Assembly (NCBI RefSeq): GCF_003194385.1
Contig: NZ_LAPT01000027.1
Span: forward strand, 1 to 64,000
Direction of reading: 5' to 3'
DNA from: Pokkaliibacter plantistimulans
Lineage (GTDB): Bacteria > Pseudomonadota > Gammaproteobacteria > Pseudomonadales > Balneatricaceae
DNA length: 64,000 nucleotides
Part shown: one piece after another, positions 29,535 through 56,268 of the stretch
Position numbering within the stretch: the first letter of the stretch is position 1
Layout of the letters: each line of letters opens with the position of its first letter
The notes under the pieces: model-generated
Database searches by the model: none
Told to the model about the DNA's origin: nothing
Seen by the model: only the letters and a program-made list of their open reading frames with translations
Translations under genes and position numbers: made by a program

Positions 29535-29562
29535 GTTCGGTAGAGAGTACGATCTGCGAGAC

Positions 29563-29587
29563 AGCGGGTGCAGTGGCACCCGCTTTT
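29563..29587 (+). terminator. Intrinsic terminator after the NSS transporter
   Basis: AGCGGGTGC and GCACCCGCT pair around AGTG and run into TTTT. The ratA Shine-Dalgarno begins immediately after, so the hairpin could also affect ratA expression. Confidence 0.85.
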
Positions 29588-29597
29588 AGGAGGATTC

Positions 29598-30339: not shown

Positions 30340-30405
30340 ACATCGTGGCAGTGTAAGGTAGCGGTGGGCTATAAAAGGGATGTTTGAAGGTAGCGTAAAT
30401 AGAGG

Positions 30406-30438
30406 CTGATCAGCAGGCAAAAGCTGCCGACTGATCAG
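30406..30438. terminator. Hairpin between rnfH and bamE
   Basis: CTGATCAG repeats at 30406-30413 and 30431-30438 and pairs around an inner AGGCA/CTGCC stem with mismatches. It lies between convergent genes. No strong T tract is present. Confidence 0.5.
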
Positions 30439-30451
30439 ACTGATATGGTCA

Positions 30452-39937: not shown

Positions 39938-40384
39938 ATGGAAGTTATTCTGCTCGAGAAAGTCGGCAAGCTGGGTGGCTTGGGCGACAGAGTTAAAGTT
40001 AAAGCTGGTTATGGTCGTAACTTCCTGATGCCTTACGGCAAGGCAGTTATGGCTACTTCTGCTAACGTTGAAGCTTTTGAAGCCCGCCGTGCCGAGCTGG
40101 AAAAAGCAGCTGCCGATAAGCTGGCTACTGCCCAGTCTCGCGCTACTCAACTGGCTGAAATCGAACTGTCTATCGTTGCCAAAGCCGGTGACGAAGGCAA
40201 ACTGTTCGGCTCTATCGGTACTCGTGATCTGGCTGATGCCATCACTGCTGCCGGTATCGCTGTAGACAAGTCAGAAGTTCGTCTGCCCAATGGCGCTCTG
40301 CGTCACACTGGCGAATTCGAAGTAGCTATCCAGCTGCACCCTGAAGTGTCTGCCAAAGTTACCATCATCGTGGTAGCTGAATAA
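39938..40384 (+). CDS. rplI: 50S ribosomal protein L9
   Basis: The 148-residue L9 has the N-terminal rRNA-binding domain ([30 protein letters not shown]), a long connecting helix (about 40-75) and the C-terminal domain with [18 protein letters not shown] precedes ATG 39938; an upstream in-frame ATG at 39917 is not conserved. A strong terminator follows. Confidence 0.97.
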
Positions 40385-40418
40385 GCTGACGCTTTATCGG
40401 TCGTCGTCAAGATGACTA

Positions 40419-40444
40419 CAAACACCCGCTTCGGCGGGTGTTTG
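40419..40444 (+). terminator. Terminator with UUCG tetraloop after rplI
   Basis: CAAACACCCGC and GCGGGTGTTTG form an 11-bp stem capped by TTCG, followed by a T-rich stretch. It separates rplI from dnaB. Confidence 0.93.
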
Positions 40445-40545
40445 TGTTTATGCCCTATCAGAGTCCACTGAGTTATGGTGAGATTCCCAGGCGAGCTGCT
40501 CTGGTATAGGGTAATAGCCCGGTTTGTCTATTGAGACTGATGTTG

Positions 40546-41928
40546 ATGGATACGCTTCCCGACCAGGAAACAGAAGCCTTAAAGCTCCCTCCTCATTCAA
40601 TTGAAGCTGAACAGTCGGTACTGGGTGGTGTCCTGCTGGATAACCAGGCCTGGGATACCGTCGCTGAGCAGCTGACCGAAGACGATTTCTATCGTCGCAA
40701 TCATCGCCTGATCTTCCGGGCCATGGCGCAGCTGATCAGTCAGCAGATGCCTCTGGATATCATTACGCTGTCGGAGGAACTGGAGTCCCGCGCAGAGCTT
40801 GAGCATGCCGGTGGTCTGGTTTACCTCGGAGAGCTGGTACAGAACACGCCGAGTACTGCCAATATTCGCGCGTATGCCGAAATCGTGCGTGATCGCTCAC
40901 TGCTGCGCCAGCTTATTAGTATCAGTGGTGAGATCATGGACCTGGCGTATCATCCGGAAGGGCGGACCGGTCCGGAGGTGCTCAATGAGGCGGAAGCCAA
41001 GGTATTCAAGATTGCAGAAAGCCGGACCCAGGCTTCGGGCCCAGTGGGCGTAAACCCCATTCTGGCGCAGACGATCGAGCGTATCGATTTGCTCAATCAG
41101 CAAGGTGGCGAAATGACCGGTGCCAGTACAGGCTTCTCTGATCTGGACCGGATGACCTCGGGTATGCAGCCATCGGACATGATTATCGTCGCTGCGCGTC
41201 CTTCCATGGGAAAGACTACCTTTGCCATGAACGTTGTGCAGAACGTGGTCGTGCAGGGTGACAAGCCGGTGCTTGTATTCAGTCTGGAGATGCCTGCCGA
41301 ACAGCTGATGATGCGTATGCTGGCGTCCCTTGGCAAGATCCCGCTGGGGAATGTGCGTACCGGACAGATGGATCCCGAGGAGTGGACCCGTCTGACGGGA
41401 GCAGTGCATATGCTGCGTAACAAGCCGCTGTATATTGATGACCAGCCAGGTCTGACGCCCAGTGAGATGCGTGCCCGTGCCCGGCGAATTCATCGTGAGC
41501 ATGGCTCCATGGGGCTGATCATGGTCGACTACCTGCAGCTGATGCGGCTGGGTGGCAACGTTGAAAGCCGTACTCAGGAAGTGGCAGAGATCTCGCGCTC
41601 GCTGAAGGCGCTGGCGAAAGAGCTGCATTGCCCGGTAATTGCGCTGTCACAGCTCAACCGTAGTCTGGAAAATCGTCCCAACAAACGTCCTATCAACTCC
41701 GATCTCAGGGAGTCAGGCTCCATCGAGCAGGATGCCGACGTCATCATGTTTATCTACCGTGATGAGGTCTATAACGAAGATTCTCCCGACAAAGGGGTGG
41801 CTGAGATCATTATCGGTAAGCAGCGTAACGGCCCCATCGGCACCTGTCGGCTGGCCTTTATCGGTAAATACACCCGCTTTGAGGATCTGGCACGAGAGAT
41901 CTATGACTCCTACAAGGATGAGTACTAG
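40546..41928 (+). CDS. dnaB: Replicative DNA helicase DnaB
   Basis: DnaB is the hexameric 5'-3' helicase of the replication fork. The 460-residue protein has the N-terminal primase-interaction domain (IEAEQSVLGGVLLD onward) and the RecA-like C-terminal domain. That domain has Walker A ARPSMGKTT, FSLEMPAEQL, the VDYLQLM Walker B region and SQLNRSLE. No intein interrupts it. In-frame starts exist at 40531 (TTG), 40540 and 40546; the last has a GAGA at suitable distance, but the choice is not certain. Confidence 0.96.
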   Translation: MDTLPDQETEALKLPPHSIEAEQSVLGGVLLDNQAWDTVAEQLTEDDFYRRNHRLIFRAMAQLISQQMPLDIITLSEELESRAELEHAGGLVYLGELVQNTPSTANIRAYAEIVRDRSLLRQLISISGEIMDLAYHPEGRTGPEVLNEAEAKVFKIAESRTQASGPVGVNPILAQTIERIDLLNQQGGEMTGASTGFSDLDRMTSGMQPSDMIIVAARPSMGKTTFAMNVVQNVVVQGDKPVLVFSLEMPAEQLMMRMLASLGKIPLGNVRTGQMDPEEWTRLTGAVHMLRNKPLYIDDQPGLTPSEMRARARRIHREHGSMGLIMVDYLQLMRLGGNVESRTQEVAEISRSLKALAKELHCPVIALSQLNRSLENRPNKRPINSDLRESGSIEQDADVIMFIYRDEVYNEDSPDKGVAEIIIGKQRNGPIGTCRLAFIGKYTRFEDLAREIYDSYKDEY

Positions 41929-41964
41929 CACGCTTGCCAGAGAGTGCCGTGCGGCAGCGGTTCG

Positions 41965-42390
41965 TCAGTCGGGAATCAGGCTGGCGAATGCCGCTGGCAT
42001 AGCCACCTTGCTACGGCTGCCGTAGTCAAAAAATACCAGCGCGGTTTTGACCAGCGCGATTTCCTTGGCATCACTCTCGCGGATCATGCGATAGAACATG
42101 TCGCAACCATATTCAAAGGCATCCATCAGCCCTACGCTGATATTCAGCACCTCGCCATGAAAGGCTTCGGCGCGAAACTGAATGGCGGCGTCGGCCATGA
42201 TGATGCCACAGCCCTCAATGTTCAGCTCCTGCCAGCCATACTGGGCGAGAAAGGCTATACGTGCCTCATGTGCCAGACCGAGAATGGCACTGTTGCTCAG
42301 GTGACCGCCGTAGTTGATATCCTGAATGCGGATCGGCAGCGTCAGTTGAAACAGACTCTGTGCCGGTAACGCCAGTCTTATCCTTGCCAT
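41965..42390 (-). CDS. Hotdog-fold acyl-CoA thioesterase family protein
   Basis: The 141-residue protein has a single 4HBT-like hotdog domain. IQDINYGGHLSNSAILGLAHEAR matches the helix-containing active-site region, with Asp and His as in YbgC/FcbC-type thioesterases; here the stretch is split as DINYGGHLSN then AHEAR. It probably hydrolyses an acyl-CoA, but the substrate is unknown. AGGCAGGA precedes the ATG. It is convergent with dnaB and divergent from the oxygenase gene. Confidence 0.8.
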   Translation of the reverse strand: MARIRLALPAQSLFQLTLPIRIQDINYGGHLSNSAILGLAHEARIAFLAQYGWQELNIEGCGIIMADAAIQFRAEAFHGEVLNISVGLMDAFEYGCDMFYRMIRESDAKEIALVKTALVFFDYGSRSKVAMPAAFASLIPD

Positions 42391-42543
42391 ACTGTCCTGC
42401 CTCTTACGTCCAGATAGATCTGTTGTTGGCCTTTGCTGATCAATCGATTTTCTTGCTTATATCGAGCATTTGATTTTGTTTCTGGTGGATTCGCTTCCTG
42501 AGCAAAATAGTCGCCCTGTTTATGACTGGGGCGCTGCACTGGA

Positions 42544-43173
42544 GTGAATACTGCTACTACTGGACTCCCGGAGTCCATGCTCGATCAATTGGCCAGCTGT
42601 GGTTACGTGGTGCTGCCCGATGAGCACAATCCCCTGCTGGAGCAGACTCTATTGCAGGCTTTATACCAGGATATCAGCTGCCATTATCAGGCCAATGCAC
42701 TGGAAGAGGCCAAAGTGGGTCAGGCACGGCAACGAGTTGAGTCAATTCGTGCTGACGAGATTGCCTGGCTGGAAGGCAAGGCTATCTGTCAGCAGCAGTT
42801 TCTGCAGGTTGCAGAGGGCTGGATGGCAGAGTTCAATCGCTCGCTGTTTCTGGGGCTGAATGCCATGGAGTTTCATTACGCCCGCTATCCGGAGGGCGGT
42901 GGTTATGCTTTGCACTGGGATAACTTCCAGGGAAATAACCAGCGTATTCTGACGTTTATCACCTACCTCAATCCGGACTGGCAGCCAGGTGATGGGGGGG
43001 AACTGCTGCTCTATGCTGATGATGAGCAGCAGTTGCTGGCATCGGTAGCACCACGTTGGGGGACCACGGTGTTTTTTCTGAGTTCAGATTTCCCGCATCA
43101 GGTGCTGCCGGCGGTGAAGCCTCGCCGCAGTCTTACTGGCTGGTTTCGGCGCAATCATCCTCTTGATTGGTAA
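42544..43173 (+). CDS. 2-oxoglutarate/Fe(II)-dependent oxygenase
   Basis: The protein is 209 aa from the GTG. It has the double-stranded beta-helix with iron ligands HWD (H124, D126) and H185 (FPHQV), and a 2-oxoglutarate-binding Arg in RRSLTGWF (194-201). This is a prolyl-hydroxylase-like family; the substrate is unknown. An ATG at 42577 is the alternative start, with GGAG close to it. That ATG and its Shine-Dalgarno lie in a 17-base palindrome (42561-42577). The 3' end overlaps the convergent glycosyltransferase gene by 41 bases. Confidence 0.8.
   Translation: MNTATTGLPESMLDQLASCGYVVLPDEHNPLLEQTLLQALYQDISCHYQANALEEAKVGQARQRVESIRADEIAWLEGKAICQQQFLQVAEGWMAEFNRSLFLGLNAMEFHYARYPEGGGYALHWDNFQGNNQRILTFITYLNPDWQPGDGGELLLYADDEQQLLASVAPRWGTTVFFLSSDFPHQVLPAVKPRRSLTGWFRRNHPLDW
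42561..42577. repeat. Perfect palindrome over the alternative oxygenase start
   Basis: TGGACTC-CCG-GAGTCCA is a perfect seven-base-arm inverted repeat that ends on the first base of the ATG at 42577 and contains its GGAG. As RNA it would hide that ribosome-binding site; as DNA it could be an operator. Confidence 0.4.
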
Positions 43174-44164
43174 ACACCGGCACCAGGGACTGCACGAAAC
43201 GCTCTGCACATTGCTGCCAGCTATTGGCTTCGGCGAACTGGCGGCAGTCGGCTCTGGATAGTGACAGGCACTGCATGGCAGCCTTGGCCAGATCCTGCTC
43301 CAGATAGCCAGTGACGCCTGGCTGCACCACGTCAATGGGGCCGGTCACCGGAAAGGCGGCAATCGGTGTACCGCAGGCCAGCGCTTCCAGCATGACCAAA
43401 CCAAAGGTGTCGGTCAGCGAAGGAAAAACAAATACATCCGCGCGAGCATACTCGTCCACCAGCGCCTGTCCCGTCTTGAAGCCGACCCATTCGGCATCCG
43501 GGTAGCGGGCCTGCAAATCCGCCCGCGCAGGCCCGTCACCGACTACCCGCTTGCGCCCCGGTAGGCGCAAGCGCAGGAAAGCTTCGATATTCTTCTCCAC
43601 CGCTACCCGGCCGACATAGAGAAATACCGGATCAGTATTGGCTGGGCGCTGCTGGGGCCTGAACTGCTCGGTATCCACTCCTCTGCCCCACACCTGCAGG
43701 TGTTCAAGGCCAGCGTTACGCAGTTCCCGGGCATTGCTTTCTGTGGTGACCAGCACCTGCTGGGATGGACGATGAAACCAGCGCAGGAATTGATAACCCC
43801 AGCGCAGGGGAACCCAGCTGAAGCGACTGGAGACGTACTCAGGGAATTTGGTGTGCAGTGAGGTGGTATAGGGAATGTGGTGCTTGTGCAGGTAGCTGCG
43901 GGCGGCGATGCCGAGCGGCCCCTCGGTGGCAATATGCACGGCATCAGGCTGGCAGTCATGTATCAGTTTGCCGACCTGCCATGGGGTAAGCACCAGACGG
44001 ATATCTGGGTAGGTGGGGCAGGGCAGGGTGCGAAAGCGCGCAGGATGAATGATCTCCACCGCCAGCTGTTGCTGCTGCAGGTAGGTGACCATGTGCGTCA
44101 GGGTGGTAACCACGCCATTGATTTGTGGGTACCAGGCGTCAGTAATCAGCAGCAGTTTCTTCAC
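43133..44164 (-). CDS. agt: GT4 glycosyltransferase, probable Agt (glycolipid synthesis)
   Basis: The 343-residue protein is a GT-B, GT4-family enzyme. Its N-terminal half has DAWYPQINGVVTTL, and its C-terminal half has FLYVGRVAVEKN, VGDGPAR and TDTFGLVMLEALACGTP. It lies directly downstream of the PlcP-like phosphoesterase and overlaps it by four bases. Adjacent plcP-agt genes in Pseudomonas and many marine and soil bacteria convert phospholipid-derived diacylglycerol into glycolipids under phosphate limitation. The assignment rests on this pairing plus family membership. It is cytoplasmic or membrane-associated, with no transmembrane helix. Confidence 0.72.
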   Translation of the reverse strand: MKKLLLITDAWYPQINGVVTTLTHMVTYLQQQQLAVEIIHPARFRTLPCPTYPDIRLVLTPWQVGKLIHDCQPDAVHIATEGPLGIAARSYLHKHHIPYTTSLHTKFPEYVSSRFSWVPLRWGYQFLRWFHRPSQQVLVTTESNARELRNAGLEHLQVWGRGVDTEQFRPQQRPANTDPVFLYVGRVAVEKNIEAFLRLRLPGRKRVVGDGPARADLQARYPDAEWVGFKTGQALVDEYARADVFVFPSLTDTFGLVMLEALACGTPIAAFPVTGPIDVVQPGVTGYLEQDLAKAAMQCLSLSRADCRQFAEANSWQQCAERFVQSLVPVFTNQEDDCAETSQ

Positions 44165-44964
44165 GTGCTGCTCTCCAGCTGGGGCAGCGACGTGGCAACC
44201 ACGGTTTCACGCTGGCGTACCCAGGCGATCAATGAAATCTCGCCCTGCATGTCCTCCACCAGCGCGGTACAGGATTCCACCCAGTCGCCGCAGTTCAGGT
44301 AGCGAACCTTACCGATATCACGAATTTCGGCGTGATGAATATGGCCACAAACAACGCCGTCGAAGTTGCGCTTGTGACATTCATGAGCGAGTGCTTCCTC
44401 AAATTCACCGATGAAATTGACGGCTTTCTTGACCTTGTGCTTGAGGTAAGCCGAGAGCGACCAGTAGCCAAAGCCAAAGCGTCGACGCAGATCGTTCAGC
44501 CAGCGATTGAGTACCAGTAGCATTTCATAGGCGGAGTCACCGAGGAACGCCAGCCAGCGGTGATAGCGAGTGATAACGTCAAACATGTCACCATGCAGGA
44601 TCAGCAAGCGTTCGCCTTTGGCAGTGATGTGTTCAGCCTCATCCGTCAGTGTGATGTTACCCAGCTGCAATGTGGAATAGCGGCGGAGGAACTCGTCATG
44701 ATTACCTGTCACGTAGGTAACGCGGGTGCCACGCTTGGCCATGGTGAGGATGCGGCGCAACACGTTACTGTGGCTTTGTGGCCAGTACACGCCCTTGCGC
44801 ATACGCCAGCCGTCGATGATGTCCCCGACCAGATACAGCTGTTCGCAGTCGTGGTGTTTGAGAAACTCCGTCAGCAGCTCGGCCTGACAGCCTTTGCTGC
44901 CCAGATGGGTATCCGAAATCCAGATACTGCGGACGCTGCGTTTTGCTGAGGCATTGCTGGCCAT
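44161..44964 (-). CDS. plcP: PlcP-like metallophosphoesterase (COG2908)
   Basis: The 267-residue calcineurin-like enzyme has metal ligands in DTH (D18, H20), GD (47-48), GNHD (87-90), HGD (124-126) and GHIHH. It resembles the LpxH superfamily and would often be annotated UDP-2,3-diacylglucosamine diphosphatase. The opening SDTHLGSKGCQ and YLVGDIIDGWR fit the PlcP group, which removes the head group from phospholipids to give diacylglycerol. Coupling to agt supports PlcP over LpxH. No convincing Pho box was found upstream: only one GTCAT half-site-like element lies near 45090. Confidence 0.72.
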   Translation of the reverse strand: MASNASAKRSVRSIWISDTHLGSKGCQAELLTEFLKHHDCEQLYLVGDIIDGWRMRKGVYWPQSHSNVLRRILTMAKRGTRVTYVTGNHDEFLRRYSTLQLGNITLTDEAEHITAKGERLLILHGDMFDVITRYHRWLAFLGDSAYEMLLVLNRWLNDLRRRFGFGYWSLSAYLKHKVKKAVNFIGEFEEALAHECHKRNFDGVVCGHIHHAEIRDIGKVRYLNCGDWVESCTALVEDMQGEISLIAWVRQRETVVATSLPQLESST

Positions 44965-45221
44965 GTACGGCTCCTGACGCTGGACGCCTACCCGATATGC
45001 GCAAGTGACTGATTTCCCAGAGGACTTGCTATGGAGCGCGATCGAGAGGGCAGACGGTTGTGCAAGTCAAAGCCATGCTAAGCAGCAAAAATGACGTATT
45101 TATTGCGAAGCGTTTCTCCCGTGCTTATTCCTTGGTCAGTGAGGGGGAAATCAACATAGGAGGACTGGAAAATACCGGGGCAGCAAAAGGAGTTCATGGC
45201 GTGGCAGGAGGTATAAGCGCA

Positions 45222-45243
45222 GCTGCCGGCAGGCACCGGCAGC
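45222..45243. terminator. Hairpin after bioA
   Basis: GCTGCCGG and CCGGCAGC pair perfectly around CAGGCA, 16 bases past the bioA stop. No T tract follows on the bioA strand. The 294-base gap 44965-45258 otherwise holds no convincing gene. Confidence 0.5.
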
Positions 45244-45258
45244 CAGAGTCGATAGCGA

Positions 45259-46548
45259 TCAGTTCAGATAGTCGGCCAGTACCTGACAGGTGGTAGCGGT
45301 CAGCTGTGCCACTTCATTCTGGCTCATGATGAACGGCGGCATCATGTACACCAGTCGTCCGAACGGACGCAGCCAGATACCCGCCTCTACCAGCTGCGGC
45401 TGCAGGATACGCATATCGACCGGATGCTCCAGCTCGATGACGCCGATGGCGCCCAGGCAGCGTACCTCCCTGACGCCGTGCAGACTGCGGGCAGGCGCCA
45501 GTCCGCTTTCCAGCCAGCCTTGCAGCGCGTTGACCTTTTGCTGCCAGTCGCTCTCCAGCAACAGCTCAATGCTGGCATTGGCTACTGCACAGGCCAGCGG
45601 GTTGGCCATGAAGGTCGGACCGTGCATGAAGCAACCCGCGCCGCCAGCGGAGATCGTTTCGGCGATGGCCTTAGTGGTCAGCGTCGCCGCCAGGGTCATA
45701 TAACCGCCGGTCAGCGATTTGCCAAGACAGAGAATGTCGGGGCTGATTTCGGCATGTTCGCAGGCGAACAGCTTGCCGGTCCGGCCAAAGCCGGTGGCGA
45801 TTTCGTCAGCAATCAGCAGTACCTCATAGCGATCACACAGGGCTCTGACCCCCTGCAGATAGGCAGGATGATAGAAGCGCATTCCACCAGCACCCTGTAC
45901 GATGGGCTCCAGAATGACGGCGGCAATCTGCTGGTGGTGCTGTTGCAGGGTGCTCTCCATTTCCGCCAGCTCCTCAGGATGCCATTCGCCATGGAAGGAA
46001 CTCTGAGGGGCAGCGACAAAAAACTGCTCAAGAATGGCGCCTCTGAACAGCTCGTGCATGCCCGTTTCCGGGTCGCACAGTGACATCGCCCCTGTGGTGT
46101 CTCCGTGATACCCATTGCGCAGGGCCAGCAGTCGTTGTCTACTGCCCTGACCGCGTGCCTGCCAGTATTGAATGGCCATTTTCATGGCGACTTCGACGGC
46201 TACCGAGCCTGAGTCGCAGATAAATACCTTGTCCAGACCCGCTGGCGTCAGCTCCACCAGATGACGGGCGAGACGGATGGCCGGGGCATGGGTCAGGCCG
46301 CCAAACATGATATGACTCATGGCATGGGTCTGATCGATCAGGGCCTGATTCAGCCGCGGGTGATTGTAACCATGCACGGCAGCCCACCATGAGGCCATGC
46401 CATCCAGCAGAACCTGGCCATTGTCGAGGTAGATCCTGACTCCTTCAGCCGCACGCACGGGAAAGACTGGTGCAGGGTTGAGCATGGAGGTGTAGGGGTG
46501 CCATATATGATCGCGATCAAAGGCGAGATCGGTGGCTGACAATTGCAT
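45259..46548 (-). CDS. bioA: Adenosylmethionine-8-amino-7-oxononanoate aminotransferase
   Basis: BioA is the PLP enzyme that makes 7,8-diaminopelargonate from KAPA using SAM as amino donor. The 429-residue protein has HIWHPYTSM near the N-terminus, GYHGDTTGAMSLCDP, LIADEIATGFGRTGK and the PLP-lysine region LCLGKSLTGGYMTLA. It stands alone, about 4 kb from the bioB-bioD genes and on the opposite strand. No BirA box was seen before it, unlike bioB. Confidence 0.96.
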   Translation of the reverse strand: MQLSATDLAFDRDHIWHPYTSMLNPAPVFPVRAAEGVRIYLDNGQVLLDGMASWWAAVHGYNHPRLNQALIDQTHAMSHIMFGGLTHAPAIRLARHLVELTPAGLDKVFICDSGSVAVEVAMKMAIQYWQARGQGSRQRLLALRNGYHGDTTGAMSLCDPETGMHELFRGAILEQFFVAAPQSSFHGEWHPEELAEMESTLQQHHQQIAAVILEPIVQGAGGMRFYHPAYLQGVRALCDRYEVLLIADEIATGFGRTGKLFACEHAEISPDILCLGKSLTGGYMTLAATLTTKAIAETISAGGAGCFMHGPTFMANPLACAVANASIELLLESDWQQKVNALQGWLESGLAPARSLHGVREVRCLGAIGVIELEHPVDMRILQPQLVEAGIWLRPFGRLVYMMPPFIMSQNEVAQLTATTCQVLADYLN

Positions 46549-46683
46549 GAGCGTGTTCCTGTACTAATCTAAGTCGGTAGTCGGGTACGTAGACATCGTT
46601 AAGCATGCGATGCGGGGTGTAGGGTGAGAACCCGGGAATAGCGCCGAGTGTCTCATATATTCATAAACAGGAGGTTAAAGCGA

Positions 46684-46932
46684 ATGAACAAATCCAAAGT
46701 CGTTGCTATTGGTGCGGTCTCTGGTCTGCTGGCGTTGGGCGTGATGAGCCATTCCGCCATGGCGGCCAGTGACAAGGAAAAATGCTATGGTGTGGCCATG
46801 GCGGGCCAGAATGACTGTGCCTCCAATGGCCATGCCTGCGCCGGGCAAGCCACCAAGGACAAAGATCCCGGTGACTGGAAATATGTAGCCAAAGGCACAT
46901 GCGAGAGTATGGGCGGCATGCTGAAAAAGTAA
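46684..46932 (+). CDS. DUF2282 (BufA/bufferin-like) secreted Cys peptide
   Basis: The 82-residue precursor has a signal peptide (1-27, ending SAMA). The mature part has four Cys at 34, 45, 52 and 73 in the pattern [14 protein letters not shown]...ACAG...GTC. This is the DUF2282 pattern, now known to include bufferins, RiPP-type peptides modified by an MNIO (DUF692) enzyme and linked to copper tolerance. AGGAGG (46669-46674) sets the start. The usual neighbours (DUF692 enzyme, DUF2063 partner, DoxX protein) are not here: bioA lies upstream and trmO downstream. It may be modified by an enzyme elsewhere or be unmodified. Confidence 0.82.
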
Positions 46933-46991
46933 GCTTTTTACTTCTACACGTTCCGACTGGTGCCTCAGCAGGGTACCAGTCGTTCTTCTCT

Positions 46992-47041
46992 CACCACCTC
47001 GTCTCCTTTCACCACCTCGTCTCCTTTCACCACCTCGTCTC
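46992..47041. repeat. 18-bp tandem repeat, 2.8 copies
   Basis: The unit CACCACCTCGTCTCCTTT occurs at 46992-47009 and 47010-47027, and its first 14 bases again at 47028-47041. The copies are identical where complete. It lies 60 bases past the DUF2282 gene, between it and trmO. Frames across it are Thr/Ser-rich and not credible genes. Confidence 0.9.
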
Positions 47042-47117
47042 TATGCCGCGATGTCTGCTGTGGGATAACAGCTGTTTCAGCTTGCCATAGTACTGTGACT
47101 TGGGCTGCAGAGCCCTG

Positions 47118-47822
47118 CTACAGCGACTCTATTGCGACTACGGCAAAGCCGTCGTCACTCGCCTCGAACAGAATATTGAAGTCATATAGTCGCAGGCCGT
47201 AACGACGGCCATCCTGCCCTTTCTGATAGGCCGGACGGGGATCCTGTGCCAGCACCTGTCGCAGCAGCAGGCGCAAGTCGGGGAAACCGCCTCGTTCAAG
47301 TTGTTGCAAGTGCTGCTCCAGTGGCTCATCCCAGCTGACAATGTGCTGTGGTGGCGGAGCATCAACGAAACCGCCGCGGGCTTCAGGATGACTGTCGACA
47401 AAGGGGACGTAAGGCTTGATATCCAGAATCGGTGTGCCGTCCAGCAGGTCCGCTCCTCCCAGCTCCAGGATACTGTGATTGGCTGCATGACGGATGCCAA
47501 GCAAGGGCACAACTGACAGACCAATAGGGTTGGGGCGGAACGGACTGCGGCTGGCAAAGACACCGACCCGGCGATTCCCACCCAGACGTGGCGGACGAAT
47601 GCGGGGCTGCCAGCCACGCTCGATATGTTCATGAAAGACAAAGGTTAGCCACAGGTGGGAAAAGCCTTCGATGTCATCCAGACTGCTGGCCGGAATGTGC
47701 TGGTCAAGATGCAGTTCAATACGGGCGGCGGTCACCAACCCGGGCTGGCGGGGGATGCCGAACTTTTCCTTATAGGGCGAGTGAATAAAGCCAATGGCCT
47801 GAAAGTGAAAGTCGGTCGACAC
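47118..47822 (-). CDS. trmO: tRNA (N6-threonylcarbamoyladenosine37-N6)-methyltransferase TrmO
   Basis: TrmO (YaeB/TsaA family) methylates t6A37 in threonine tRNAs using SAM. The 234-residue protein has a beta-barrel SAM-binding domain with IGFIHSPYKEKFGIPRQPG, GVFASRSPFRPNPIGLS and DIKPYVPFVDS. A small C-terminal domain has DGRRYGLRLYDFN. The start is GTG at 47822 with AGGA about 12 bases before. It works downstream of TsaE, whose gene is in the same window but not adjacent. Confidence 0.94.
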   Translation of the reverse strand: MSTDFHFQAIGFIHSPYKEKFGIPRQPGLVTAARIELHLDQHIPASSLDDIEGFSHLWLTFVFHEHIERGWQPRIRPPRLGGNRRVGVFASRSPFRPNPIGLSVVPLLGIRHAANHSILELGGADLLDGTPILDIKPYVPFVDSHPEARGGFVDAPPPQHIVSWDEPLEQHLQQLERGGFPDLRLLLRQVLAQDPRPAYQKGQDGRRYGLRLYDFNILFEASDDGFAVVAIESL

Positions 47823-47955
47823 GGGGTGCTATTCCTGTTGCTGTGGTCAGGGTTGTCGCAAGGGGCGTTACTATAGGGGCTGTCAGCATCTGACTCCAGT
47901 CGGGTCATCCTGCTCCGCCAGGTGGGAGTGAATTGCGTCCTGATAGGCTACGAGA

Positions 47956-48594
47956 TCAGTGCAGATAGCTCATCGGGTTGACGGCCTGACCATGAATGCG
48001 CACCTCAAAATGCACGTGCGTGCCATTGGCATGACCGCTGTTACCCATACGTGCTACCGGCTGCCCTTGCTGGACTGTCTCCCCCTTGTCCACCAGATTC
48101 ACGCTGTTGTGGGCATACACCGTCTGAAAGCCGCCACCGTGATCGATGATGATGATGCGGCCGTAACCACGCATATTACCGCTGAACACCACCTTGCCCT
48201 GACCTGCTGCTAGTACTGATGTACCACTGGGGCCACGGAAATCGACGCCGTTATGCATGCGGCCATCGCGCATGCCGAAGCCGGAGGAGTAGTCAGGATG
48301 ACTGACCGGATAGGCCAAGTGCCTGACTACTGCATCCGTCGGTACTTTCAGCTTATCGCCGATTTCAATGCGGCTGGGGTTGGCATCTGGGTTCAGGCGG
48401 CTCAGGGTTTTGACGCTGATGCCATAGCGACGGGCGATGCTGTAAAACGTGTCCCCTGCCTTGACGTAGTAGGTCTGGGTATCGCTGGGAAGAGGCGGGT
48501 TGCTGCCGCAGCCGCCAAGCAGCAGGGCCAATATCAGTAAGGGTAGAGCGAGACGCAGTGAGCGCGGGGCGTTCAGAGTGCTCAGCAATGACAT
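47956..48594 (-). CDS. LysM-M23 peptidase lipoprotein (NlpD-like)
   Basis: The 212-residue precursor has a lipobox LLGGC with Cys29, a LysM domain (about 41-86, YYVKAGDTFYSIARRYGIS) and an M23/LytM domain (95-212). The zinc-site residues are all present: H114 and D118 in HNGVDF, and H193 and H195 in HVHFEVR. An active cell-wall endopeptidase is therefore possible, unlike the degenerate NlpD and EnvC activators. It is not in the usual nlpD place beside rpoS and pcm. Confidence 0.88.
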   Translation of the reverse strand: MSLLSTLNAPRSLRLALPLLILALLLGGCGSNPPLPSDTQTYYVKAGDTFYSIARRYGISVKTLSRLNPDANPSRIEIGDKLKVPTDAVVRHLAYPVSHPDYSSGFGMRDGRMHNGVDFRGPSGTSVLAAGQGKVVFSGNMRGYGRIIIIDHGGGFQTVYAHNSVNLVDKGETVQQGQPVARMGNSGHANGTHVHFEVRIHGQAVNPMSYLH

Positions 48595-48707
48595 TCATCC
48601 TCCTTGAAGGTGATGGTCTGATTCCTGGGCGGTCCGCAGTGTGACAGCAGTGCCTGCTGCCACAAGGGGCTGCCCGTGCTCTGAATCACAAGGGGGCGCA
48701 GGTATGC

Positions 48708-49610
48708 CTAACGTGGAGACTGCAGCTGCTGGCTGGGAAAGTTCGCCGCATTAAGGCGAGCCAGCAAGCCATCAGGCCCGGGCATGTGCAGTGCCCCTAC
48801 GACAACGAAAAAGGTACCACTGCTGCGCAGTAAGCGGATCAGTTTGTCTGCCATTTCCGCATTACGCTGACTGTTGAGCCGGTCCAGATAGGCTTTCAGG
48901 CGCGGGTCATCACCGGCTTCCTGTTCTGACTGGCGATAGACTGCAGGGCCATCCCCGCGGCGCCAGGCCTGATACAAGCAGGGCAGAAAGTCTTTGTCCT
49001 GTTCCATCTGATCCAGCGTACTAACCAGATTGGCCACCTGAATATTCATATCGGGGACAGCGATGGCCTGCAGCTGACTCTCAAGTGTTTCCAGCGCCAG
49101 GATCTGCCGGTTGCCGGCGCGACGCATAAAGTAGTGATCAATACCGGCCGTAGTGTCAAATCCCTGCCGCTCAGCATCTGCCAGTACCAGCTGTGTACCT
49201 GCACGCCAGGGCTGCCAGGGTTGCATGGCGTTGTAATCCAGCCCCAGTTGTTGAGCATGCTGACGTAACCGTTGCTGATCCCTGGCTGAGAGCAGGTCTG
49301 ACAGTCGCTGGCCGTTTTGCAGGTTACCGTAGTGATCGAACAGCTTCTGCTGGGCGGGCAGGGGGAGGTCGGTGGGATTGATTTCTACCACCAGATAGTC
49401 AGACAGCGAAAATGCCGCTTCCACCGCTTGTGGCAGGGGATAGCCCTGCGGCGGGAAGGCATGCAGGGAACCGAGCAGATACAGCGTGGCAGTCTGGGAA
49501 CGAATCTGCCAGGCAAAGACTGGCTGAGCGCTGGCCAGCTGGGGTACCAGCCAGAGACACAGGGCCAACAGCCAGCCTGATAGTGCGAGTGGTATTCGGT
49601 ATGGGCGCAT
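48708..49610 (-). CDS. TraB/GumN family protein
   Basis: The 300-residue protein begins with a signal peptide (about 1-28, ending ASA). The TraB/GumN domain has the first GxxH block GSLH at 47-50, a conserved Glu and the late VVGALHMPGPDGL block. This fold is related to Tiki-type metalloproteases, so a periplasmic metal-dependent peptidase is possible. The biological role is unknown. AAGGAGA lies before the ATG at 49610; the frame is open to 49712 but that part is not signal-like. Confidence 0.82.
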   Translation of the reverse strand: MRPYRIPLALSGWLLALCLWLVPQLASAQPVFAWQIRSQTATLYLLGSLHAFPPQGYPLPQAVEAAFSLSDYLVVEINPTDLPLPAQQKLFDHYGNLQNGQRLSDLLSARDQQRLRQHAQQLGLDYNAMQPWQPWRAGTQLVLADAERQGFDTTAGIDHYFMRRAGNRQILALETLESQLQAIAVPDMNIQVANLVSTLDQMEQDKDFLPCLYQAWRRGDGPAVYRQSEQEAGDDPRLKAYLDRLNSQRNAEMADKLIRLLRSSGTFFVVVGALHMPGPDGLLARLNAANFPSQQLQSPR

Positions 49611-49681
49611 AGTGCCGCGTTCTCCTTGAGGTGAGCTGCAGCTCAAGCAAATTGCCGGGGCCTGAAAATCGTTGCTATCGG

Positions 49682-50410
49682 TCAGTGGTGGGGCGTCCGG
49701 GCCAGACACCACAGTTGCAGTCGGGTGATCTGCTGGCTGCGCAACAGTGCAGCAATGGCGTTGGCGGTCGCCCCGGTCGTCATGACGTCATCAATTACGG
49801 CCACATGACGGTAACCGGGATTGCCGCGCAGCGCAAAGGCTGAGCGAAGATTGCGTCGCCGGGCCCGGGCACTCAGGCCTTGTTGTGTAGCAGTGGCTTG
49901 CGTGCGCTGCAGATAGTGGGTGTCGACCTTGATCTGCAAATGCCGGGATAGATACTGCGCGAGCCACAGGCTGTGATTGAAGCCGCGCTGCTGCAGACGC
50001 TGACGGTGCATGGGGACTGGCAGCAAGACCTCTGGAGGCTGTAGCCCTGCTTCCTGCCAGGCGCCTAGCATCAGGCTGGCCAGCAGCCGACCTGCACTGA
50101 AGTCAGCCTGATATTTCCAGCGGCTAATCAGGTACGGCAGTGGCGTTTCATAACGCCATGGACTCCAGACCCGGTTATACAGTGGCGCCTGTTTCAGACA
50201 CTGACCGCACAGCCCCGTCGCACTCTGTGCCTCCAGAGGCAAGGAACAGCCCAGACAGGCCGGCTGGTTGAAGGGCATGTCCTGCTGGCAGCCAGTGCAG
50301 AGCAAACCTGTCGGGGGGCGAGGATGACTCCTGCAAAGGACGCATGGGTAAAATAACTGGTTAAAAAAAGATCTGAAGTAAACCTTGTTATTTTTCATTG
50401 GTTGACTCAT
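49682..50410 (-). CDS. comF: ComF family phosphoribosyltransferase-like protein
   Basis: The 242-residue protein has Cys pairs (CVLC, CTGC, CLGC, CGQC) in the first 75 residues forming zinc sites. A phosphoribosyltransferase fold follows, with [14 protein letters not shown] as the PRPP loop. Relatives (ComFC, GntX) take part in DNA uptake; a role in natural competence is possible but not shown. Start codons at 50410 and 50398 are both possible. The BirA-like operator at 50378-50406 covers these first codons. It diverges from bioB. Confidence 0.88.
50378..50406 (+). promoter_or_regulatory. BirA operator for bioB
   Basis: GTAAACC (50378-50384), 15 bases, then GGTTGAC (50400-50406) fits the proteobacterial BirA palindrome TTGTAAACC-N14-16-GGTTTACAA (7 of 9 and 6 of 9 bases in the two arms). 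It overlaps the -35 of the bioB promoter, so bound biotinoyl-AMP/BirA would block it. It also covers the first comF codons. Confidence 0.72.
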
Positions 50411-50429
50411 TCCCTGAGCTGATTAAGAT
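50402..50429 (+). promoter_or_regulatory. Sigma-70 promoter for bioB
   Basis: TTGACT (50402-50407), 16 bases, then TAAGAT (50424-50429), about 95 bases before the bioB ATG. It is overlapped by the BirA-like site. An AAGTA-TGTT-TACTT inverted repeat lies further down the leader. Confidence 0.6.
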
Positions 50430-50523
50430 GGCGGTATTCCTGATACCCCTGCGGAATCGCTGCTGTGCTGACCAGACCTGCAGTGCAGGGGTAAGTATGT
50501 TTACTTTTGCGGAGCACTGCACG

Positions 50524-51600
50524 ATGTCAACCACTGTCATTCGCCATGATTGGACCGAGGGCGAAGTCCGCGCTCTGTTTGAGCAGCCTTTCAATGATTT
50601 GTTGTTTCAGGCTCAAACAGCCCATCGTCAGTACTTTGACCCCAATCAGGTGCAGGTCAGCACCCTGTTGTCGATCAAAACCGGTTCCTGCCCTGAAGAC
50701 TGCAAGTACTGCCCGCAAAGTGCGCATTACGACACCGGTCTGGAAAAGCAGAAACTGATGGAAGTGAAGAAGGTACTGGAGGAGGCCGCCAGAGCCAAGG
50801 ACAGCGGCGCCAGCCGTTTCTGCATGGGGGCTGCCTGGAAACATCCGACCCAGCGTGACATGCCTTACGTGCTGGAGATGGTGCGCGGTGTCAAAGCCAT
50901 GGGGCTGGAGGCCTGTATGACACTCGGCACGCTCAATCGCGATCAGGCCGGTGAGCTGGCGGAGGCCGGGCTGGATTACTACAACCACAACCTCGATACC
51001 TCGCCAGAGTTCTATGACAGCATCATCACTACCCGCTCTTATCAGGAGCGGCTGGATACCCTCAGTCATGTGCGCGACGCCGGTATGAAGGTCTGTTGTG
51101 GCGGCATCATGGGGATGGGGGAAAGCCTGCAGGATCGCATCGGCTTGCTGCGGGTACTGGCCAACATGCCTGATCATCCTGAAAGTGTGCCGATCAATAT
51201 GCTGGTCAAGGTGGCGGGTACGCCTCTGGCAGAAGTTGAAGACCTGGACCCCTTCGACTTTATCCGCACCATCGCGGTAGCTCGGATCCTGATGCCACGC
51301 TCACATGTGCGACTGTCGGCCGGGCGCGAAAAGATGAATGAGCAGGTGCAGGCGCTGTGTTTCATGGCGGGTGCCAATTCCATTTTCTATGGCGAAAAGC
51401 TGCTGACTACGCCTAACCCAGAGGCGCATGCAGACAAAGTGCTGTTCAGGAAACTGGGGATCACCCCTGAAAGCCGTGAAGGGTTATCTGATGAGGCGCA
51501 CGAACAGGCATTGTTGCAGCAGGTACGTCAGCAACAACAGGCCAGCCTCTACCATGACGCCGGTGCTCCTCAGGCGCAGGCCGCAGCTGCCCTGCAGTAA
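50524..51600 (+). CDS. bioB: Biotin synthase BioB
   Basis: BioB is the radical-SAM enzyme that inserts sulfur into dethiobiotin. The 358-residue protein has C56, C60 and C63 (SCPEDCKYC) for the SAM cluster. It also has [10 protein letters not shown] and [13 protein letters not shown], with Cys and Arg residues for the second cluster. ATG 50524 has GGAG eight bases before; the frame opens at 50398 across the promoter, which is not coding. It is first in bioB-bioF-bioH-bioC-bioD. Confidence 0.97.
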
Positions 51601-51602
51601 TC

Positions 51603-52781
51603 ATGATGGATGCATTCAATCTGCAGGCTCGCCTGAAGGAGCGTCAGCAGCAACATCTCTATCGTCAGCGCAGGACTCTGGAAGGTGCGCAGCAACCAGA
51701 AGTAGTGCTGGATGGTCAGCGCTATCTGGCGTTCTGCAGCAATGACTATCTGGGTCTGGCTAATGATCCAAGGTTGAAGCAAAGCGCCATCGAGGCGGTG
51801 CGGCGTTACGGTGTTGGTAGCGGCGCTTCCCATCTGGTCAGCGGTCATAGTGCCGAGCATCATGCGCTGGAAGAAGAGCTGGCGGCATTCACCGGACGAC
51901 AGCGAGCCCTGCTGTTTTCTACCGGCTACATGGCCAATCTGGGGGCTATCAGTGCGCTGCTGGATGATCAGTCGGCCGTGTTTGAAGATCGCCTGAATCA
52001 TGCCTCCCTGCTGGACGCTGGCCTGAACAGTGGCGCGCGCTTTCAGCGCTACCTGCACAATGACGTCGACAATCTGGCCAGTCGTCTGGGCAAGGCGACG
52101 CAGTCGCACAAGCTGGTGGTGACAGATGGTGTCTTCAGTATGGATGGTGATGTCGCGCCATTGAATGAGCTGGCGCAGCTATGCCACGACCAGCAAGCCT
52201 GGTTGATGGTGGATGATGCCCATGGTTTTGGGGTGCTGGGAGAGCGCGGTGCTGGGCTGGTTGAGGCCTGTGAGCTTGATCAGCAGCAGGTGCCTGTACT
52301 GATGGCAACCCTGGGTAAGGCATTGGGCTGTGCCGGTGCTTTTATCGCGGGTAGCGAGACCTTGATTGAGGCGCTGATTCAGTTTGCCCGCTCCTATATC
52401 TACACCACAGCAATGCCACCCGCAGTAGCGGCAGCAGGACGTCAGGCACTGAGTATTGTGCAGCAGGAGCCTGAGCGAAGACTGCATTTGCAGCACCTGA
52501 TCAGACGCTTTCGTCATGAGGCTGAAGTCATGGGGCTGACACTGATGTCCTCACAGACCGCCATTCAGCCTGTGCTGGTAGGCTCTGCGGCACGGGCGAT
52601 GGCGCTCTCTGCAAGCCTGCTGCAACAGGGCATCTGGGTCACGGCAATCCGCCCACCTACGGTGCCTGCTGGCATGTCTCGGCTGCGTATCACACTGACG
52701 GCAGCACATACCGATCAGCAACTGGATCGTCTGCTGCATGCCTTGGAGCGCAGCTGGCGAGAGGTGAGCGATCATGACTGA
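51603..52781 (+). CDS. bioF: 8-amino-7-oxononanoate synthase BioF
   Basis: BioF joins pimeloyl-thioester and alanine to form KAPA with PLP. The 392-residue protein has [43 protein letters not shown] and the PLP-lysine region [16 protein letters not shown]. It starts two bases after bioB and overlaps bioH by eight bases. Confidence 0.97.
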
Positions 52782-53472
52782 GTGGGTGCTGATCAATGGC
52801 TGGGCGATGCCTGACCACCTCTGGCACAGTGTAGTAGAGCGGCTATCACCGCAGGGTACCGTGCACATTCTCTCTCCTGACCGTCATGCAGGTACGTTGG
52901 CAGAGGCGGCCAGCAGCATACTGGCTCAGGCACCTGAAAGGGCAAACTGGCTGGGCTGGTCACTGGGTGGTCGGCTGCTGATGGAGGCAGCTGTGCAGGC
53001 GCCTGAACGTATTGCTCTGGCTGTCACGCTGGCAGCCAGCCCCAGCTTTGTGGCCACAGCGAATGCACCGGGCATGTCGCCTGATGTGTTTGATCAGTTC
53101 ATTGATGCCATGGAGCAGCAGCCTCTACCGACGCTTCGGCGCTTTGCCGGTATGGTGGCTCAGTCTCATCCACTAGGAAGAACCTTGCTGGCCATGTTAC
53201 GTGACTATCATCTTGGGCTGAGCAGCGAGGAGCTCATCAGTCTGTCTCGGCAGCTACAGTGGCTGGCAGATGACTGCTGCCAACACTGGGCGGAGGTTAG
53301 GGTGCCGCAGCGCCACTATCTGGGGGCGTGCGATGGTCTGGTACCTTCGCAGATTGCCGAAGTGCTTAACGGTGCGATGGCGGTAGTGGATGTGTTGCCT
53401 GATCAGGGGCACCTGCTGCACTGGCCTGATACCGCATGGCTGGACTTATCTGGAAAGAGTGCGCATGCATAA
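52774..53472 (+). CDS. bioH: Pimeloyl-ACP methyl ester carboxylesterase BioH
   Basis: BioH hydrolyses the methyl ester of pimeloyl-ACP to end pimelate assembly. The 232-residue alpha/beta hydrolase has the nucleophile Ser63 in GWSLGG, an Asp in ACDGLVP and a His in DQGHLLHWP. In E. coli bioH lies apart from the bio operon; here it sits inside it and overlaps both bioF and bioC, as in pseudomonads. Confidence 0.93.
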
Positions 53473-54238
53473 GCAGAACATTGCCCGTGAATTCAGCCGT
53501 GCCGCTGCCGGCTATGATCAGGCAGCTGTTCTGCAGCGGGAGATCGCAGGACGTTTGCTGGCGGGCTCGCCTCATTTGTCGGGCCGGGTGGTTGATATGG
53601 GCTGCGGTACCGGGTACGTCAGCCGCCATTTACCGGATGGGCTGCAGGTGCTGGCACTGGATATTGCCCAGGGAATGTTACAGCAGGCGCGTCATCTGGC
53701 ATCTGCTGACGCCTATGTGAATGCGGATGCAGAAGCGCTGCCGCTGCAGGAGGGCTGTGCTGATGCGGTGGTTTCCAGCCTGGCAGTGCAGTGGTGTCAT
53801 CATCCCGCAAGGATGTTTGCCGAGGTGTGGCGCGTACTGAGGCCGGGAGGCTGGCTGTGCCTGACCACGTTGGGGCCCCGTACCTTGTGGGAATTGCGAG
53901 CTGCCTGGGCAGCTGTCGATCAGGAGGAACACGTCAATCGCTTCGCCAGTTTAGCTTGCTGGCAGCAGGCTGCTGGTCATGGCTGGGTAAATCAACACTG
54001 GCAGGCCCGTGACAGCGTGGCCTTGTACGACAGTGCCAGACAGGTCATGCGTGATCTGAAACAGCTGGGCGCCAGCCACACTGATGCGGCAGAGGTACAT
54101 CGTGGCCGAGCGCTAGCGGGGCGCCAGCGGCTGCAGGCGCTGGAGCATGCCTATGAACAGGTGTGTTCCGGTGAGGCTCTGACTGTGACCTATGATGTGT
54201 TCTATGCGTATCTGCAGAAGCCCTGTAATCCTCTGTAG
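53465..54238 (+). CDS. bioC: Malonyl-ACP O-methyltransferase BioC
   Basis: BioC methylates malonyl-ACP so that it can enter fatty-acid elongation as a disguised pimelate precursor. The 257-residue protein has the SAM-binding motif VDMGCGTG, the usual opening IAREFSRAAAGYDQAAVLQ and VWRVLRPGGWL. GGAAAG lies seven bases before ATG 53465. An upstream start at 53390 is inside bioH in another frame. It overlaps bioH by eight bases. Confidence 0.95.
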   Translation: MHKQNIAREFSRAAAGYDQAAVLQREIAGRLLAGSPHLSGRVVDMGCGTGYVSRHLPDGLQVLALDIAQGMLQQARHLASADAYVNADAEALPLQEGCADAVVSSLAVQWCHHPARMFAEVWRVLRPGGWLCLTTLGPRTLWELRAAWAAVDQEEHVNRFASLACWQQAAGHGWVNQHWQARDSVALYDSARQVMRDLKQLGASHTDAAEVHRGRALAGRQRLQALEHAYEQVCSGEALTVTYDVFYAYLQKPCNPL

Positions 54239-54280
54239 TGCATTTCTGACTGGTTTTTATTACGACAACCGGGTGAGTTC

Positions 54281-54976
54281 ATGTCGATTTTTTTTGTTAC
54301 CGGTACCGACACCGATTCGGGCAAGACGCTGGTGTCCTCTGCGTTGCTCTGGCGAGCGCGTCAGATGGGGCTGACAACCCTGGGTATCAAACCCATTGCC
54401 TCTGGCTGCGAACAACAGGATGGTGGCTGGCGCAATCGTGATGCGCTGAGCCTTCAGCAGCAAAGCTGGCCGCAACTGGACTACGCGCTGCATAACCCAC
54501 TGCGTTTCCCCGAGGCCATTGCGCCTCATATCGCGGCTGAACTGCATGGGCAGCATCTGAGTGTGACGTCGGTGGAGCAGGCGTTGCAGCCCGTGCTGGC
54601 ACAAAAGGCACAGTTCACTCTGATTGAAGGTGCGGGTGGCTGGTATCTGCCATTGAACAATCAGGGGCAGATGCTGTCGGACTGGGTGGCGCAGCATGCC
54701 TGGCCTGTTGTGCTGGTCATCGGGTTGCGTCTCGGCTGTCTGAATCATGCCAGTCTGACCGTCAGCGCGATCCGCCAGGCAGGTCTGTCGCTGGCTGGGT
54801 GGGTGGTAAACCATGTAGATCCTGATATGCCTTATCAGCGGGAAAATATTGCAACTCTTCAGGCAACAATGCCTGCGCCGTGCCTGGGCAGAATCCCATG
54901 GCTGGAGCAGGCCAGTGCAGAAAACGCGGCACCCTTCCTTAATCTGCAATCTTTACATTTAGTTGATGTTGGCTAA
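54281..54976 (+). CDS. bioD: Dethiobiotin synthetase BioD
   Basis: BioD closes the ureido ring of dethiobiotin using CO2 and ATP. The 231-residue protein has the modified P-loop GTDTDSGKT, the conserved Lys of GIKPIASG and EGAGGWYLPLN. It ends the bio set. The promoter of the next small gene overlaps its last codons. Confidence 0.95.
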   Translation: MSIFFVTGTDTDSGKTLVSSALLWRARQMGLTTLGIKPIASGCEQQDGGWRNRDALSLQQQSWPQLDYALHNPLRFPEAIAPHIAAELHGQHLSVTSVEQALQPVLAQKAQFTLIEGAGGWYLPLNNQGQMLSDWVAQHAWPVVLVIGLRLGCLNHASLTVSAIRQAGLSLAGWVVNHVDPDMPYQRENIATLQATMPAPCLGRIPWLEQASAENAAPFLNLQSLHLVDVG

Positions 54977-54979
54977 AAT
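54952..54979 (+). promoter_or_regulatory. Sigma-70 promoter for the small gene after bioD
   Basis: TTTACA (54952-54957), 16 bases, then TAAAAT (54974-54979). It overlaps the end of bioD and would start transcription about 20 bases before the ATG at 55006. Confidence 0.6.
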
Positions 54980-55005
54980 TTGCTCAGAATATGAGGTGAT
55001 ATTCA

Positions 55006-55278
55006 ATGCAGATTCAGGGCAGTACTTTCACCTATGGGCAACTGGGTATCCAGCGAGGTCTGGCACAGCTGGATCAGGCGGGGGCACAGATTGCACAAGG
55101 TTCGGTCAGTGATAGTTCCGCTAGCTCGGACAACGGCCTCAGCAACGATCAGGGTTCTGCTTCGGTTGAGGATGGTTTGCTGAGCTTGCCTGAAGCAAAA
55201 GTTTTGGTTCAGGCTGGTGCCAAGGTATTGGAAGCGCAAAATTCAACCTTAGGAACATTGCTGGATATTAAGGTTTAA
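55006..55278 (+). CDS. Small conserved-type protein after bioD
   Basis: This is a 90-residue protein with no signal peptide or membrane helix. The N-terminus MQIQGSTFTYGQLGIQRGL is amphipathic. The middle is rich in Ser, Asp and Gln and the C-terminus (LPEAKVLVQAGAKVLEAQN) is helical. GAGGTGA precedes the ATG and a good promoter lies upstream. Pseudomonas has a small hypothetical gene after bioD, and this may be its homologue. It is 18 bases from the SprA-like gene and probably co-transcribed. The function is unknown. Confidence 0.7.
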   Translation: MQIQGSTFTYGQLGIQRGLAQLDQAGAQIAQGSVSDSSASSDNGLSNDQGSASVEDGLLSLPEAKVLVQAGAKVLEAQNSTLGTLLDIKV

Positions 55279-55296
55279 CTCGCTACGAGGTCATCC

Positions 55297-56268
55297 GTGC
55301 TGATTTCAAGCCTGGGGCTGACCTATCAACCCACTACCGCTTCAACGCCGCCTGCTCCTCAGGCAGCAGCTAATCTTACTGAGCTGACAGTCGCTCAGCA
55401 GGTAACTGCGCCCCCGTTAAATAATGGCTCGCAGAATCAGCAACAATCTTCCGGACAGGGTTCCGGCTTATTGCAGGACAGGGAAGGGGAGCTACGCGCA
55501 AAAGAGCGTATCGCCACCAATGCCGCTAAAACATCTGGCAATACATCAACCGTTGGTGAGCAATTATCAACGGCAGATCAGCAGCAGGTGGATGAGCTGC
55601 AGTCGCGTGATCAGCAGGTTAAAGAGCATGAGCGGGCTCACTCCGATGCGGCAGGTCAGTACGGAGGCTCGCCTCAGTATGATTACACCCGGGGACCAGA
55701 CGGGCGCTTGTATGCCACAGACGGTGAGGTATCGGTAGACACCTCACCTGTGCCGAACAACCCCCAGGAAACCATCGAAAAGGCACAGGCCATTATCAAG
55801 GCGGCCCGTGCTCCCGTTGATCCTTCTGCGCAGGATGACAAGATTGCACTTGAGGCTCAGCGTATGCTGGCTGAAGCTCAGGCTGAGCTGGCCAGAGACA
55901 GGGCCAAGGAGAATCAGCAGGCCCAGCAACAAGCGCAGCAGCAACTGCAGGATGATACGTCCACTCAGGCACGTGCATTGGAGCAGATACAGGAGCGCAT
56001 TGAGCCACTGGCGAGTCAGGTTGTGCAAGGAGGCGATGATACTTCATCTTTAGCTGGGCGGGGAGCTGGTGAAGCACAGGCTACCCAGAGCGACACTGCT
56101 CAATCCTCTGTTGCTAATAGTGAAACGGTACCCATTCCCCCAACGCCTGTGGATGATCAGCTAGCCAAAGTCCAGCAGCAGCTTCGGGAGATCAATCGGC
56201 GTCTCGTCGAACTCGGTGTTTATTCCCGGCTCTACCCCTCAGGCGGTTTTGTGAACACTCAGGCCTGA
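55297..56268 (+). CDS. SprA-related putative metalloprotease
   Basis: The 323-residue protein has a Ser/Gln-rich N-terminal half, then the block with zinc motif HERAH (111-115, HExxH) and QYDYTRGPDGRLYATDGEVS. A coiled region (about 185-235, Gln/Ala-rich) follows. This is the SprA-related family (also called putative metalloprotease catalytic domain). No signal peptide or membrane helix is seen. The start is GTG, with GAGG six bases ahead. The substrate and role are unknown. Confidence 0.8.
   Translation: MLISSLGLTYQPTTASTPPAPQAAANLTELTVAQQVTAPPLNNGSQNQQQSSGQGSGLLQDREGELRAKERIATNAAKTSGNTSTVGEQLSTADQQQVDELQSRDQQVKEHERAHSDAAGQYGGSPQYDYTRGPDGRLYATDGEVSVDTSPVPNNPQETIEKAQAIIKAARAPVDPSAQDDKIALEAQRMLAEAQAELARDRAKENQQAQQQAQQQLQDDTSTQARALEQIQERIEPLASQVVQGGDDTSSLAGRGAGEAQATQSDTAQSSVANSETVPIPPTPVDDQLAKVQQQLREINRRLVELGVYSRLYPSGGFVNTQA

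Follow-up and report, generated by a model that had tools for sequence, protein, structure and literature searches.

A solitary Buf1 bufferin precursor gene between bioA and trmO in Pokkaliibacter plantistimulans: a probable operon remnant with a complete paralogous cluster elsewhere in the genome

Bufferins of the Buf1 type are the closest described systems, and the following background is taken from PMC12452194. In Buf1, modification falls on the two central cysteines, and the outer pair is joined by a disulphide. The Buf1 of Caulobacter vibrioides contains cysteine-derived thiooxazoles. Stand-alone Buf1 precursor genes have already been reported in the same paper (Fig. 3 legend and co-occurrence section), and for their products the authors consider either modification by MNIOs from other loci or no modification. 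Since such stand-alone genes are published, an MNIO beside the precursor gene is usual and not obligatory. Preliminary results mentioned in its Discussion make the signal peptide a part of BufB-BufC recognition.

In this study, a DUF2282 gene of Pokkaliibacter plantistimulans was analysed. The window is the whole stretch of 64,000 nucleotides from contig NZ_LAPT01000027.1, and the gene, called the solo gene here, lies in it between bioA and trmO (Table 1). A sequence-only reading had described the product as a DUF2282 peptide with four cysteines. The open reading frame was present, and the HMM search placed the peptide over the cut-off of the PF10048 (DUF2282) profile, with 81.2 bits and an E-value of 5.4e-23 against a cut-off of 22.4, so the assignment is not due to chance. 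With the NCBIfam BufA2 equivalog (NF050166), the solo peptide reached 29.8 bits, below the cut-off of 60, and the two peptides of the bufferin operon on contig C47 of the same genome were also below it (op1, 30.6 bits; op2, 29.9 bits). The four cysteines of the solo peptide aligned with those of op1, op2, and the bufA product of the relative G013. The N-terminus showed a hydrophobic stretch ending in SAMAA, read by eye as a putative signal peptide.

The neighbours given by the same reading, bioA and trmO, were both borne out, the former divergent and the latter convergent. The name bioA was taken from that reading and from the nearby biotin genes, and not from the PF00202 match. Matches to bioA were found in all 37 genomes searched, the genome under study included. 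The solo gene has its own ribosome-binding site, a divergent bioA, a convergent trmO, and a terminator-like hairpin, and therefore reads as a single-gene transcription unit. One hairpin was found in 46500–47150, compared with a mean of 0.4 in shuffled sequences. The Rfam scan of 46400–47200 gave nothing at the gathering threshold.

Table 1. Features of the solo gene and its surroundings (positions in the window).
Feature	Position	Strand	Evidence or remark
Solo DUF2282 / Buf1 bufferin precursor gene, 82 aa	46684..46932	+	ORF; PF10048
Putative signal-peptide-coding part, residues 1–28	46684..46767	+	boundary by eye; 20/28 residues as in C47 op1
Mature part, residues 29–82, Cys 34, 45, 52, 73	46768..46929	+	51/54 residues as in op1
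Shine-Dalgarno-like GGAGGT	46670..46675	+	read from sequence; ahead of ATG 46684
Divergent intergenic region common to bioA and solo gene	46549..46683	.	without ECF-type motif
Terminator-like hairpin 3' of solo gene, 12 pairs, weak T tail	46954..46982	+	
18-bp direct repeat, 2.8 perfect copies	46991..47041	.	in the gap where G013 has bufB-bufC-doxX
bioA, divergent neighbour	45259..46548	-	PF00202, 410 bits
trmO, convergent neighbour	47118..47822	-	TrmO_N, 142.9 bits

The genes for maturation were searched at the locus and in the genome. The genome's own MNIO, DUF2063, and DoxX proteins gave no tblastn match in 40001–56000 of the window. When the assembly (5.79 Mb in 215 contigs) was searched by family, three DUF2282, two MNIO, and two DUF2063 genes were found. 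Both MNIO and both DUF2063 matches were on contigs other than that of the solo gene, which is the outcome of the genome-wide DUF692 and DUF2063 check proposed by the sequence-only reading. On contig C47, the genes stand in the row op1, op2 (both DUF2282), MNIO, DUF2063, and DoxX, and the MNIO exceeded the BufB equivalog cut-off (363.5 versus 310 bits). The other MNIO and DUF2063 pair, on contig C160, has no adjoining DUF2282 gene and is preceded by a gene for a large ferritin-like protein; its MNIO was also over the BufB cut-off, with 344 bits. The solo gene had been read as an orphan without its modifying enzyme. This was correct for the locus and incorrect for the genome, which carries a full bufferin cluster on C47. 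An assembly artefact was ruled out: the solo gene and op1 differ at 18% of nucleotides, their flanks have no clear likeness, and the solo gene is placed inside a 72.9-kb contig.

The C160 region (26306–30454; L007:2307–6455) encodes a PF12902 ferritin-like protein of 717 aa, the C-terminal tail of which is Cys-rich, and directly after it the BufB-like MNIO and the DUF2063 protein. Homologues of the ferritin-like protein were found in four of 194 genomes of the order sample (the genome under study, G132, G196, and G223), and each was followed by matches to the C160 MNIO (54–56%) and, in part, to the C160 DUF2063 protein. Ten Cys columns were invariant in the four sequences. The 717-aa protein may be a very long MNIO substrate. 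The terms "MNIO" and "ferritin-like" did not occur together in any one paper of the literature searched. The published adjamnio-2 family has a Hahella representative.

The solo peptide was 87% identical to op1 and 62% identical to op2. The solo and op1 peptides differed at 11 of 82 positions, of which eight were in the first 28; residues 30–74, with all four cysteines, were identical. For the whole genes, the comparison of solo and op1 gave a dS of 1.14 and a dN/dS of 0.059 (Nei-Gojobori). For the mature part, dS was 1.18 (1.24 with one more alignment column) and dN/dS was 0.027, a pairwise value that does not apportion present constraint between the two copies. Near-saturated synonymous sites together with a low dN/dS indicate that solo and op1 are old paralogues under protein-level selection, and not a fresh copy. 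The signal peptide of the solo gene agreed with that of op1 at 20 of 28 positions, and that of op2 agreed with op1 at 12 of 28. Among the 157 DUF2282 ORFs gathered (some genes twice), the next best match to the solo peptide after op1 was that of G013, with 70% identity. A short peptide tree was built from 61 hand-picked rows of this set. Solo and op1 grouped with a support of 96/78; op2 and a Propionivibrio peptide likewise fell into the group with G013 (81/91).

The bioA/trmO site was then compared with that of relatives. The nearest relative in the sample was G013, with a bioA 74% identical, compared with at most 65% in the other searched genomes; the genus is represented in the sample by one genome only. 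The gene order in G013 is bioA, bufA, MNIO, DUF2063, DoxX, a 140-aa ORF, and trmO, and in the window it is bioA, bufA, and trmO. The two genomes are alike in the order of three genes left of bioA and of the peptidase, TraB-type, comF, bioB, and bioF genes right of trmO, where several flank gene names were assigned by eye. G013 has two extra genes between trmO and the peptidase gene, which are absent from the window. In the MNIO tree, the C47 and G013 enzymes were sisters with a support of 100/97; the tree held 108 of 146 collected ORFs, after removal of duplicates, of the other copy of the G013 locus, and of most rows below 43% identity.

The gene pair to the right of the C47 operon is found side by side in G013, with 59% and 66% identity, and the 1.3 kb upstream of that G013 gene pair gave no significant MNIO, DUF2063, DoxX, or bufferin match. 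The C47 position therefore looks derived. To the left of the C47 operon, the 32 aa encoded at the contig start had no match in the loci of five relatives, so the place of insertion is unproven. In the 185 bp after the solo gene, blastn and tblastn found no remnant of bufB, bufC, or doxX (82 of 200 shuffles scored as well), and the loss of these genes is thus read from synteny alone. The likeness of the DNA upstream of the solo gene to that upstream of G013 bufA was unconvincing (69 of 500 shuffles reached the score), as was its likeness to that upstream of op1 (33 of 500).

ORFs of 117–140 aa adjoin trmO in seven of the loci of 20 relatives, and none had a tblastn match in the window. They fell into three sequence groups with weak mutual similarity (pair scores reached by 0, 2, and 0 of 500 shuffles). 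The one at L226:6195–6617 (minus strand) encodes a 140-aa secreted-looking protein without a Pfam match, and has divergent relatives beside trmO in other genera. The bioA regions of 20 family members were also compared for MNIO clusters. In the bioA/trmO interval, G013 alone had a Buf1 cluster, and five members had an EGKCG-type MNIO cluster (L227, L228, L230, L231, and L239); 13 had no MNIO match there, and G018 had no trmO match in the stretch. In this family, the interval looks like a site occupied repeatedly by MNIO clusters.

The upstream regions were searched for promoter motifs. TGTAAG-N16-CGACTA was found upstream of op1 (L006:313–340, G000 C47), and the motif TGTAAG-N16/17-CGWCTA, called ECF-type from its look, is common to bufferin operons of several unrelated genera. 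A score of 11–12 of 12 was reached by 19 of 138 bufferin upstream regions, compared with 0.8 expected from shuffles; the 138 were taken from 160 stretches, the rest being redundant, short, or with N, and some of the stretches belong to related genera. Op1 counts among the 19 and gives no independent support, since the motif was first noticed there. The best score was 9/12 in the solo region (359 bp scanned) and 10/12 in the op2 region, neither above chance. The exact pattern had no site on the contig of the solo gene, and the G013 gene (L157) was not among the rows scoring at least 11. The exact-pattern scan of the whole genome gave one match, before op1, versus three of the reversed control pattern, so that no regulon can be drawn. 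No sigma-70 promoter was found before the solo gene or before op1, and NrsF had no match in the genome. We infer an ECF-type promoter for the C47 operon and none for the solo gene.

The frequency of solitary DUF2282 genes was investigated in two samples. Among the best 80 of 167 confirmed named relatives, 79 had a downstream MNIO match on the same strand, the exception being L059. Of the 99 genomes in the family sample (the one under study included), 57 carried 68 DUF2282 places. Of these places, 54 were at most 500 bp from an MNIO, nine more were within 2.5 kb, and five were farther away or without one; most genomes without a DUF2282 gene were left out of this tally, which does not affect the distances counted. 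The five places were in G000 (the genome under study), G039, G084, G095, and G086, and in G084 and G095 further DUF2282 genes are located close to an MNIO. With five of 68 places distant or MNIO-less, and with L059, solitary DUF2282 genes are a minority that recurs. In G086 (C35, L185:6439–9865), genes for a transposase (DUF772, DDE_Tnp_1) and a type I methylase (HsdM) come after the DUF2282 gene. This genome, listed as 95% complete, had no PF05114 match, that is, no MNIO was found in it. Its DUF2282 gene, with no enzyme found, is perhaps another operon head left behind.

The solo gene belongs to the DUF2282 family, is paralogous to a second locus in the same genome under protein-level selection, and stands in synteny with the full operon of G013. 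The results suggested that it is probably the bufA remnant of a Buf1 operon once present between bioA and trmO, whose product would be matured in trans by the C47 enzymes and would serve as a copper buffer. A complete Buf1 operon would have been copied or moved from the bioA/trmO site to C47. At the old site, bufB (MNIO), bufC (DUF2063), and doxX would have been lost and the promoter-proximal bufA kept, and the small trmO-side gene was probably lost too, for a total loss of about 2.6 kb. The direction of change would be loss rather than gain, as judged from the gene orders compared. The solo peptide would be exported by Sec; modification of its two central cysteines most likely takes place in the cytoplasm, carried out in trans by the C47 BufB-BufC complex. 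In the periplasm the peptide would then act as a copper buffer, as other Buf1 peptides do, and the solo gene would be regulated separately.

Maturation in trans is considered likeliest because the signal peptide of the solo gene is nearer to that of op1 and preliminary results in PMC12452194 give the signal peptide a role in recognition. Should op2 be a substrate, the same would be expected of the solo peptide, since its signal peptide is nearer to that of op1 than the op2 signal peptide is. The sequence-only reading had left two options, modification in trans and an unmodified solo form. The former is favoured by the identity with op1 over residues 30–74 and by the full operon in G013 at this site, and the latter gained indirect support only. 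An unmodified peptide, exported and with a function of its own as a metal or redox peptide with a disulphide bond, would agree with the missing enzyme in cis and the missing ECF-type motif at the solo gene. It would also agree with G086, where a solitary DUF2282 gene occurs without a PF05114 match, and the possibility is kept open in PMC12452194. However, the four cysteines and 45 consecutive residues are those of op1 despite near-saturated synonymous sites, and a new role should have let the enzyme-recognised part drift; this role is unlikely. Little credence is likewise given to the reading that the solo bufferin stays without modification, or receives it only upon induction of the C47 enzymes via the ECF-type promoter. 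If this were true, two forms of almost the same peptide, chemically distinct and separately controlled, would coexist in the cell.

The rest of the operon is gone at the site and a complete one is present on C47, so the solo gene could also be a decaying leftover, transcribed or not, which no longer matters to the cell. This is quite unlikely, given a dN/dS of 0.03–0.06 versus op1 over a long time (dS about 1.1), an intact start and ribosome-binding site, and the presence of the terminator-like hairpin. It is very improbable that the solo gene arrived alone, as an op1 duplicate in the bioA/trmO gap, and that G013 gained its full operon there independently. The identity of 87% between solo and op1, versus 70% and 66% to G013 bufA, is in line with such an arrival, and repeated arrivals do happen in an interval that is a recurrent home of MNIO clusters. 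However, two arrivals of the same Buf1 type would be needed in the same interval, orientation, and gene position, and the C47 MNIO is sister to that of G013. A duplication between op1 and solo after the split from G013 is equally expected if the solo gene is an operon remnant.

Whether MNIOs mature precursors encoded far away was left open by the authors of PMC12452194. The present genome is a natural test, with two peptides identical over residues 30–74, one beside the enzyme and one not. The two have different signal peptides and upstream regions, and G013 shows the intact arrangement. Both the occurrence of solitary Buf1 genes and the possibility that their products are matured in trans have already been published (PMC12452194). 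The present work contributes one specific example, in which a near-identical paralogue adjoins the enzyme and a relative has the intact operon at the site.

The cluster on C47 is of the standard Buf1 kind, with tandem precursors, an arrangement also described in PMC12452194. Compared with the precursor-MNIO-DUF2063-DoxX clusters described there, the window gene is alike in its DUF2282 family, signal-like N-terminus, and four cysteines, and differs in its solitary position between bioA and trmO, where it lacks a maturation gene in cis. The Buf_EGKCG/oxazolin clusters are alike in occupying the bioA/trmO interval in five of 20 family members fetched, and differ in their EGKCG-repeat precursor and in a distant MNIO with 38–39% identity to that of C47. 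The stand-alone Buf1 genes of PMC12452194 resemble the solo gene, which likewise is its own transcription unit by look and has MNIO and DUF2063 genes elsewhere in the genome; here, the near-identical operon paralogue and the G013 operon at the same site suggest the origin of the gene.
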